From Calditrichota bacterium (GTDB lineage: Bacteria; CLD3), in the NCBI GenBank assembly GCA_008501735.1, contig QQUF01000037.1:1-41202 (forward strand): a stretch of 41,202 nt of DNA. The letters run 5' to 3'. A model generated the notes under the pieces. The model saw nothing but the letters and a program-made list of their open reading frames with translations. It was not told the origin of the DNA and searched no databases. Positions 7,478 to 11,909 of this stretch are shown piece after piece (the stretch's first letter is position 1; every line of letters begins with the position of its first letter). Both the position numbers and the translations under genes were made by a program.

Positions 7478-7554
7478 TAGAGACGCACATTGTGCGTCTT
7501 AGTAAAAAGCACAAATTTTAATATTATTTTAAGATGCACCGCCGTGCGTCTCTA
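7478..7554. repeat. REP-doublet-like palindromic element (AGAGACGCAC family)
   Basis: Two palindromic units face each other. The left unit (7479-7501) contains AGACGCACA-t-TGTGCGTCT, a perfect hairpin. The right unit (about 7530-7554) reads, on the other strand, TAGAGACGCAC, GGCG and TGCATCTTA, an imperfect copy. About 28 bp of AT-rich sequence separates them. The organisation resembles REP doublets (BIMEs) or a very small MITE. Its right terminus, CTA on the plus strand, supplies the TAG stop of the minus-strand OstA-like gene at 7552-7554. No REP-associated transposase is in the window. Confidence 0.7.
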
Positions 7555-8814
7555 CTCTTTTAATTGAATTTGACTTTGGTATTTTCTTGGGAAGTAAGTT
7601 CCTTCTGAGCCTGTTTGGACTTCAATTTCAACGACTTTCTGTTTGTCGAAATTGATTTTAATGAAGCTTCCTGATACTTGGTTTGCACCACTTTTGTCGT
7701 CCAAGTAATAAACACTTTCGGCATTTTGCTTGATTTGAGATTCGTTTAGTTCGCCATCTTTGAAGACCATCGTAATCTCTTTTCCTTTCATCAAGTTTGT
7801 GTTTCCTGTTTTTTCAGAAAGTGATTTTGCAAACGCTTTTCCTTTGACAAAAACAGAATCTAACTTTTCGTCTTTGAACAAAATTTCAATCAATCTTCCG
7901 TCCAAGTCATTACTTTTTTGTTTAATTCTTGGCTCTGAGCGAAGAACTAACTTTGAGGTTTCGGTGTAGTAAAAGGCGGAATCGCAAAAAGCATCAAACT
8001 CTTCGCTTGTGATTCTAACATCTTCCGTTACCAAAAAGTAACTTGAATCTTGGTAGCCTTCCATTCTTTTCCCAATAACTTTCAATTGTTGTTTTCCTGT
8101 CGAGTCAAATTTAGTAAGAACAGGTTCGCCAAGAGCAACTAAAACTTTGATGTCAGTGTTGTAAATTAAAAGATTACTACTCAAAACAACTTTGTGAGAA
8201 TCATTTGTAACTGTAACATTTCCTTCTGCTCTTGCCTGAAAAAGTTTCTCCGAATGCGTAATTTCATTAGCAAAAACAACTGTGTTTCCGTAGTAAAGTT
8301 CTGCATTTTCGTAAGCACGAATGAACAAATCTTTGCGGAAATAATCTGCTTTATCAGCCCGCAATTCATAACTTGTGTCTTTGTAAACGACATTTCCACG
8401 AAGTGCGTAAGAATCAGAAATTTGTGAATAAACAAGACTATCACAAGTCAAAACTTTTGTGGTGTCAATAATTTCAACATTGTCCCAAAAAGTCGAAATT
8501 TTGATATTTTCGTTGTAGCGTGCAAAATCCGAAGCAATCGAAGACTCACCTTGAGTAAACAAAACATTTCCAATCAAAAATTTCTCATTGATTCCAAACT
8601 TAGTAACATTTTTCAAAGTGTCGGCGTGTTCAAGGTAAAGCAAATCATCCTGAGCAGAACAGTGAACAGTGAACAGTGAACAGTGAACAGTGAAGAGAAA
8701 AAGGATTTGTAGGATTACCGACTTTAGTCGTTTTTTTACCTCAGGACAGACTAAAGTCCGCAATCCTGTTCTCCTGTCTCCTGACTTCTGTCTCCTGACT
8801 TCTTCCCTTCTCAT
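7552..8814 (-). CDS. OstA-like / LptA-family LPS transport protein
   Basis: Periplasmic beta-jellyroll protein of the OstA/LptA superfamily (420 aa, the Bacteroidota OstA-like type, longer than E. coli LptA). The fold's repeating pattern is visible: GNVVYKDTSYELRADKADY, then AEGNVTVTNDSHKVVLSSNLLIYN, then VRITSEEFDAFCDSAFYY. The family forms the bridge that carries LPS from LptC to the outer membrane. Its start overlaps the lptC stop as ATGA, supporting translational coupling. The N-terminus is odd. After the start ATG come about 37 residues encoded by short repeats and an inverted repeat. A hydrophobic core made by five GAACAGT copies (LFTVHCSLFTVHCSA) then acts as the only apparent signal peptide. 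Its stop codon lies in the 7478-7554 palindrome. Confidence 0.82.
   Translation of the reverse strand: MRREEVRRQKSGDRRTGLRTLVCPEVKKRLKSVILQILFLFTVHCSLFTVHCSAQDDLLYLEHADTLKNVTKFGINEKFLIGNVLFTQGESSIASDFARYNENIKISTFWDNVEIIDTTKVLTCDSLVYSQISDSYALRGNVVYKDTSYELRADKADYFRKDLFIRAYENAELYYGNTVVFANEITHSEKLFQARAEGNVTVTNDSHKVVLSSNLLIYNTDIKVLVALGEPVLTKFDSTGKQQLKVIGKRMEGYQDSSYFLVTEDVRITSEEFDAFCDSAFYYTETSKLVLRSEPRIKQKSNDLDGRLIEILFKDEKLDSVFVKGKAFAKSLSEKTGNTNLMKGKEITMVFKDGELNESQIKQNAESVYYLDDKSGANQVSGSFIKINFDKQKVVEIEVQTGSEGTYFPRKYQSQIQLKE
8657..8691. repeat. Five perfect tandem copies of a 7-bp unit (GAACAGT) inside a coding region
   Basis: GAACAGT is repeated five times without error, followed by a partial unit GAAG. 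On the minus strand it codes for the hydrophobic stretch LFTVHCSLFTVHCS of the OstA-like protein's signal peptide. Because the unit is 7 bp, losing or gaining one or two copies shifts the frame, and a change of three restores it. A two-copy relative occurs at 26846-26871. Confidence 0.85.
8711..8766. repeat. Inverted repeat, GACTTTAGTC family, copy 1
   Basis: The left arm AGGATTACCGACTTTAGTC pairs with the right arm GACTAAAGTCCGCAATCCT (two mismatches over 19 bp) around an 18-bp loop. It is clearly related to the perfect hairpin at 11825-11878 (AGATTGCAGACTTTAGTCC arm). This copy lies inside the 5' coding region of the OstA-like gene, next to a tandem 14-bp duplication (CTGTCTCCTGACTT, twice, 8774-8801). 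Confidence 0.75.
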
Positions 8815-9356
8815 TTCAGTTTACTTCTGTCAATTGTTCGTTCTGATTTTCCGTAAGGGTTCTCGATGTGCCAATTTTCAAGTTTTTCGTCGCTTTCAAG
8901 TCCTGTTCCGTAAAGAGTGTCTTCTTCGGTTACAACCATTACTTTTACTTCTGTTTTGAAAATTCTGTCTTTTTGAATCCAGTGCATTTCGTCTGTAAAA
9001 ATCGTAATTCCTGAATCAGAATGAACAACAACGTTTCCGAAAGCATCAACGTCGTTTGTCTTTTCAAAAACGATGCCTGAATCAGCGTCAACAGTTGAAG
9101 AAATTTTCCCATTTTCAAAAATATTTACGCGAATTTTCCCTGTGGCAATAAGTTGCTTTTCAACTTCGAACTTTTGGATTTCACCTGCAAGGATTTTTGA
9201 GGAAAGTTTTCCTTCGTTAAAAACTGAAATTTCGGAAGCCCAAACTTGTTGATTTGGCTTTCCTTCAATGTCAATTTCAGAAGTATAAGGAAGTTCCTCT
9301 TTCTGACAAGAAGTCAAAATGACTAAATAGAAAATTAAGAAGAAATATTTTTTCAT
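8811..9356 (-). CDS. lptC: LptC, LPS export ABC transporter periplasmic protein
   Basis: A 181-aa LptC homologue. It has a short hydrophobic leader ending in a lipobox, LTSC (Cys17), so it is likely a lipoprotein rather than the bitopic form of E. coli. The OstA/LptC jellyroll follows, with typical phrases VFNEGKLSSKILAGEIQKFEVEKQLIATG, FENGKISSTVDADSG, DAFGNVVVHSDSG and LYGTGLESDEKLENWHIENPYG. LptC accepts LPS from the LptB2FG transporter and passes it to the LptA-like bridge, encoded next with an ATGA overlap. It is divergent from hscA across 192 bp. The permease and ATPase genes are not in this window. Confidence 0.88.
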   Translation of the reverse strand: MKKYFFLIFYLVILTSCQKEELPYTSEIDIEGKPNQQVWASEISVFNEGKLSSKILAGEIQKFEVEKQLIATGKIRVNIFENGKISSTVDADSGIVFEKTNDVDAFGNVVVHSDSGITIFTDEMHWIQKDRIFKTEVKVMVVTEEDTLYGTGLESDEKLENWHIENPYGKSERTIDRSKLK

Positions 9357-11794: not shown

Positions 11795-11824
11795 TTGGTT
11801 CAAACAAAGTAAATAAATAATTTT

Positions 11825-11878
11825 AGATTGCAGACTTTAGTCCGTTTTTAGGCACAAACGGACTAAAGTCTGCAATCT
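11825..11878. repeat. Perfect inverted repeat, GACTTTAGTC family, copy 2
   Basis: Perfect 23-bp arms, from AGATTGCAGACTTTAGTCCG continuing TTT, around an 8-bp loop. The downstream arm runs into TTATTTTTTT, so on the plus strand it could also terminate hscA-fdx transcription. It is the same family as the inverted repeat at 8711-8766, and both copies sit beside GACAGGAGTCAG-type sequence, so the two loci share a composite structure. Confidence 0.75.
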
Positions 11879-11909
11879 TATTTTTTTGACTTTAAAAATC
11901 AAAGTAACA

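Follow-up and report, generated by a model that had tools for sequence, protein, structure and literature searches.

The lptC-ostA junction

The window, by which we mean the whole stretch of 41,202 nucleotides that was analysed (contig QQUF01000037.1 of the Calditrichota bacterium assembly GCA_008501735.1), carries on its minus strand a gene whose product matches the Pfam families OstA_2 (1.1e-11) and LptD_N (3.2e-10). This gene adjoins an LptC gene, a pairing that identifies it as LptA/OstA-like, and it is called ostA here. A preliminary description of this DNA had reported that the lptC stop and the ostA start overlap as ATGA, which is seen at 8811-8814, and that the 5' end of ostA consists of repeats. 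From the ATG, the coding strand runs through the repeated 14-mer (MRREEVRRQKSGDRRTG), then a palindromic element, a 16-nt spacer and a heptamer array to AQDDLLYLEHAD, the point where similarity to the relative G001 sets in. The features are the following:

7552-8814, minus strand: LptA/OstA-like gene, intact, 420 aa when opened from the ATG
8811-9356, minus strand: lptC-like lipoprotein gene (Pfam LptC, 9.4e-13; LPAM_1)
8812-8814, minus strand: ATG start of the ostA open frame
8774-8803, minus strand: tandemly repeated 14-mer, read as AAGTCAGGAGACAG on the coding strand and present 2.1 times; it codes for RRQKSGD.. and holds AGGAG motifs
8711-8767, minus strand: palindromic (hairpin) element of 57 bp, LRTLVCPEVKKRLKSVI on the coding strand, coding for the basic n-region
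8761-8763, minus strand: in-frame TTG, a candidate start codon, in an arm of the element and behind the AGGAG of the 14-mer repeat
8695-8710, minus strand: spacer of 16 nt, with which the hydrophobic core begins (roughly LQILFL)
8657-8694, minus strand: array of 5.4 heptamers, reading TTCACTG in the coding direction; it encodes LFTVHCSLFTVHCS, the latter half of the hydrophobic core followed by the c-region
11824-11880, no strand assigned: second copy of the palindromic element, between a ferredoxin-like gene and the next gene

All the repeats described for the ostA 5' end are present at the places named, with differences of one base. The duplicated 14-mer exists as 2.1 perfect copies (8774-8803), and the inverted repeat has arms at 8711-8729 and 8749-8767 that are 89% complementary and spans 57 bp, one base above the earlier figure. 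The heptamer, described as GAACAGT, forms 5.4 perfect copies (8657-8694), and no tandem repeat of the window scores higher; base composition by itself would produce a perfect period-7 run of such length about 1e-13 times per window. Stretches of the same genome totalling 426 kb, mostly picked for palindromes rather than sampled at random, contain just three perfect period-7 runs, so the genome is not heptamer-rich, and the tandem GAACAGTGAACAGT is unique in it to the ostA site. As a side observation, four copies of TCGTAAT lie within a 790-aa ORF of this genome (L074:17802-17830), another non-triplet coding heptamer. No RNA family of Rfam matched in the window at gathering thresholds, and a search for ostA in viral contigs gave no match.

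Homologues of OstA were sought in 60 genomes, 18 of which had a match; the single match in its own genome was the gene itself, and the only match from the same family was G001, whose contig is also that of the MAG SJ803 (JADZEA010000179.1) and for which a contig scan gave no further relative. The two proteins are 55% identical, and their mature parts can be aligned from AQ on, directly after the array. The preliminary description had proposed looking for a normal signal peptide at this position in relatives, and G001 does have one: its OstA starts with MKFIFLLSFVFCKVLFAQNDLIYLEHAD, an ordinary short signal peptide without repeats, and the place equivalent to the repeats reads MKFIFLLSFVFCKVLFAQND.. 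there. OstA homologues of the same class with readable printed N-termini also have ordinary-looking hydrophobic starts. Since G001 has a normal signal peptide without repeats, the N-terminus of OstA in the window is derived; the signal peptide of G001 is nevertheless very different from that of the window, so that the exact empty site is not discernible. In G001, ostA is followed by an lptB-like ABC gene (L035); beside the window's gene pair (7552-9356), the gene that comes next is TonB-receptor-like and has the opposite orientation.

Because the genome is a draft in 59 contigs, one could suspect that the contig is wrong here or that the true start of ostA is elsewhere. We hold such an artefact to be very improbable: the 38-nt array is shorter than a read, the frame is intact over 420 codons, the mature part aligns straight after the array, and translation of the gene revealed no in-frame signal peptide downstream of it.

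The predicted signal peptide and its reading frame

By sequence and hydropathy, the N-terminus of OstA has what is expected of a Sec signal peptide, namely a basic n-region, a hydrophobic core and a small residue at -1. The labour is divided among the repeats: the hairpin element provides the n-region, the spacer opens the core, and the heptamer, which in the ostA frame reads LFTVHCSLFTVHCSA, finishes the core and leads to HCSA|Q, where cleavage is plausible. The preliminary description had taken the heptamer for the sole hydrophobic export signal, which is wrong. Most of the most hydrophobic 11-mer, VILQILFLFTV, is encoded ahead of the array, by the last part of the inverted repeat and by the 16-nt spacer, and the mean hydropathy of LFTVHCS is only 1.23, so the array lengthens the core but is not the whole of it. 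The notion of a repeat-built signal peptide holds insofar as the peptide consists largely of repeats; the strongest part of the core lies outside the array. Judging from hydropathy, this N-terminus would export the protein, with cleavage predicted at A|Q.

A 7-bp unit passes through every frame, and the array therefore encodes LFTVHCS in all three. The hydrophobic core of a signal peptide is about 10 residues long. Heptamer arrays of this kind suit a role in signal peptides because they read LFTVHCS in all three frames, have no stop on the coding strand and reach about 10 residues with 4-5 copies.

The same arithmetic underlies the suggestion, made in the preliminary description, that ostA behaves like a phase-variable contingency locus. 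At such a locus, slipped-strand mispairing would alter the number of heptamers, and OstA would be exported with 2, 5 or 8 copies but not with other numbers. When the copy number was varied in silico from 0 to 10, only 2, 5 and 8 copies connected the start to mature OstA, and in the other frames no ATG, GTG or TTG lies between the last stop and the array; copy number would thus decide the reading frame of ostA. The model for such a locus is Neisseria opa, where the copy number of CTCTT repeats in the region coding for the signal sequence sets the frame and leads to switching (for the comparisons with opa, Haemophilus, Yersinia and Rickettsia we relied on the accessible sections of PMC3960869, PMC3899988, PMC13183285, PMC2651432, PMC8262952 and PMC2229807). 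Like opa, ostA encodes an envelope protein and has a perfect non-triplet tandem repeat near its 5' terminus, within the part that codes for the signal peptide; a change of copy number moves it in or out of frame, at least in silico. As far as these sections go, however, opa has a pentamer, belongs to a multigene family of surface adhesins and is proven to switch, whereas ostA has a heptamer in few copies and is a single LPS-transport gene. Its array has just five copies, compared with mostly more (6-38) in the phase-variable heptamers of Haemophilus covered there. Furthermore, ostA is the single match in its genome, so an off state would mean loss of the function. We therefore retain from the suggestion that a 7-bp unit would shift the frame, and regard switching at this locus as unlikely; the five copies and the single-match gene argue against it, as does the stability of orthologous arrays described below.

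The dispersed palindromic element

The hairpin element in ostA is one of many copies. With the non-heptamer part as BLAST query, its own genome yielded 59 matches, and a 21-base arm pattern with at most 3 mismatches gave 63 matches, against 0 for the reversed control. These 63 arm matches correspond to about 39 elements when paired by hand, 24 of them with both arms, and such a number of dispersed hairpin-forming copies is in keeping with small palindromic mobile elements of the MITE/REP/RPE type. The consensus of 19 aligned copies is one long hairpin, in which 5 of 19 pairs show changes on both sides that preserve the pairing, mainly a swap of C-G to G-C. The positions of 18 elements were compared with those of ORFs: 16 fall between genes and 2 within ORFs. 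Of these 2, one is a partial copy at L032 and the other lies on contig 29.

A second protein bears the element at its N-terminus, a product of 502 aa with FG-GAP and Big_5 domains encoded on contig 29 (L081:1868-3376; C29:1868-3376). There, too, the element codes for the n-region of a signal peptide, in the same frame and with the same TTG as in ostA (MRTLVRSYSTNGLKSAIPILNLLVCFSSLLTA versus MRTLVCPEVKKRLKSVILQILFLFTVHCS), and upstream of it both genes read RRQKSG from purine-rich repeats. An AGGAG stands 7 nt ahead of the TTG in ostA and is absent before that of the contig-29 gene; AGGA/GGAG-type motifs lie ahead of 74 of 259 long ORFs, versus 12 of 259 in the control stretch. The ostA hairpin, at -25.3 kcal/mol, could impede initiation at the TTG.

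Two known families of elements resemble this one in the sections of the sources that were available. In Yersinia, the MITE YPAL/RU-2 partly forms the signal peptide of an exported protein, YPO1552 (Delihas 2007, PMC2759123), so that a small palindromic element contributes to a signal peptide as in ostA; that element, however, is 168 bp long and hydrophobic, whereas the one in ostA has 57 bp, codes for the basic n-region and leaves part of the core to a separate heptamer. Rickettsia palindromic elements are dispersed hairpins, open in one frame and inserted in frame within conserved genes, and the ostA element is likewise a dispersed hairpin with one open frame, lying in frame in a gene. They differ in that those of Rickettsia measure 105-146 bp and occur anywhere in genes, and the 57-bp element is found here at the N-termini of two exported proteins.

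According to these sections, genes of Rickettsia carry such elements in frame and are little affected by them, which would be compatible with yet another reading of the ostA 5' end, namely that the repeats are neutral debris which drifted in and is tolerated by the protein, export resting on the spacer VILQILFLF alone. That the most hydrophobic 11-mer mostly precedes the array fits this reading too. The n-regions of signal peptides tolerate insertions. We nonetheless find neutral debris quite improbable, since removing the array loses both the cleavage region and the frame, and since the same heptamer recurs in the signal peptides of unrelated genomes, whereas none of the 25 degenerate G101 sites described below is a signal peptide, a pattern that points to selection for the peptide. 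Conceivably, the array might also be bound by a regulator or have a role at the RNA level.

Heptamers in other genomes and probable recruitment of the repeats

The exact trimer (TTCACTG)3 was first sought in 386 spread genomes, 5 of which were positive, and the phyla of three positive genomes were then searched, for a total of 398 distinct genomes; as those phyla were picked for their hits, the counts give no estimate of prevalence. The search yielded 14 sites in 8 of the 398 genomes, with few genomes added by further members of the G158 and G378 phyla. Half of the sites (7 of 14) read as cores of N-terminal signal peptides: that of the window, four in G101 (L063, L065, L067, L071) and one each in G386 (L120) and G158 (L062). 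If L065, which has no clear start, and L062, which has no known domain, are dropped, 5 of 14 remain. The other seven (L060, L061, L121, L159, L160, L162, L163) are not signal peptides; arrays without this role occur in G113, G378, G393 and G394, and there is one in G386. By chance, 7 of 14 would have a probability of 2e-9 and 5 of 14 one of 4e-6, rough figures that take as yardstick a generous target fraction of 1.8% from the window's genome and concern sites that are not independent. In G101, 30 sites with at most 2 mismatches were translated: signal peptides were found at 4 of the 5 sites with the exact 17-mer versus 0 of the 25 others (Fisher, 2e-4), the four lying in a single genome and two of them being neighbours. 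The domains found with heptamer signal peptides are the TonB-dependent receptor, M23 peptidase, SLT transglycosylase (L148, a 17-nt array in G239) and Big_5; L071 has a weak match to OmpP1/FadL, under its cut-off, and L067 matches OB-fold families, its one envelope match being weak.

The stability of such arrays could be followed for the TonB receptor of G101. Its N-terminus served as query against six genomes of the family, and four of the five that matched have the N-terminus within the match. This family belongs to another phylum than the window, and it is there, not for the window's ostA, that stability is shown. In the orthologues L164-L167, from three genera, there are five heptamers in 4 of 4, the distance from the ATG to the anchor is 87 nt in 4 of 4, and the alignment of the signal peptides is gapless. 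The unit itself varies, being GTTCACT in G101, GGTCACT in G387 and mixed in G386 and G239. As the number of heptamers and the length are the same and the units differ, copy number and frame must be old and have been kept in this family. Identity within the arrays is 94, 80, 83 and 71%, and between orthologues 86-91%, which suggests that units may have been homogenised in the G101 array alone.

These data weigh on both sides of phase variation. The within-array identity of up to 94% in G101 suggests homogenised units and so some slippage or conversion, and many of the comparison heptamer genes encode surface proteins. Orthologous arrays nevertheless keep length and frame in 4 of 4 cases across three genera, and among the sites translated by eye no array in an OFF state before an out-of-frame exported ORF was recognised, such cases being easily missed.

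We consider it probable that the 5' end of ostA was rebuilt from repeats which now act as an ordinary Sec signal peptide, and this recruitment is the best-supported account when set against phase variation. In the scenario we propose, the 57-bp hairpin element and the 14-mer repeat would have come to separate the lptC end from the hydrophobic core; the element, with 19 codons and open in one frame, would give the basic n-region, perhaps together with a TTG start preceded by AGGAG, and the five-copy heptamer array would complete the core and add the cleavage region. Once installed, the array would have been kept for its protein sequence and its frame. The repeats appear to have been inserted into ostA rather than to have grown in place, the 16-nt spacer is possibly a remnant of the ancestral ostA signal peptide, and ostA presumably does not switch.

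More tentatively, and with somewhat less than even confidence, we propose that non-triplet tandem repeats are a recurrent source of bacterial signal peptides. An array near a start would give a core in any frame, selection would fix its length, slippage or conversion would keep its units alike, and at least two phyla would have taken up the same heptamer independently, one of the genes concerned serving LPS transport. Intergenic heptamer repeats have been described in unrelated lineages, TAACTGA in Beggiatoaceae, cyanobacteria and Bacteroidetes and GGGNATC in Xanthomonas and Nostoc (PMC4679880, PMC4692102). From the sections available, they too are scattered arrays of 2 to tens of copies, common to unrelated lineages and sometimes within ORF ends; they differ in being mostly intergenic and read as regulatory, and the sections of PMC4679880 that were available do not mention signal peptides. 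In our search of the open-access literature we found no description of heptamer arrays that serve as the core of a signal peptide, and the peptide and the DNA repeat themselves brought up only unrelated papers. Such a use would join intergenic heptamer arrays of unknown use with the loose sequence requirements of signal peptides, and would offer a testable route from repeats to coding sequence. It also calls for caution, in that a non-triplet repeat in a 5' coding end need not be a phase-variation switch, orthologous arrays keeping their frame across genera.

Two minor observations concern heptamers elsewhere. Well inside ORFs lie 5 of the 25 degenerate sites of G101. At L115, L123, L124, L131 and L137 of this genome, degenerate heptamers, mostly TTCACCG (PFTVHRS), look like in-frame inserts in longer ORFs. 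In G158 (L062:1435-1560), the GLTGSRAHGLT upstream of the heptamer also comes from a short GGCTCACGG-like repeat, so that two repeats seem to build that N-terminus.
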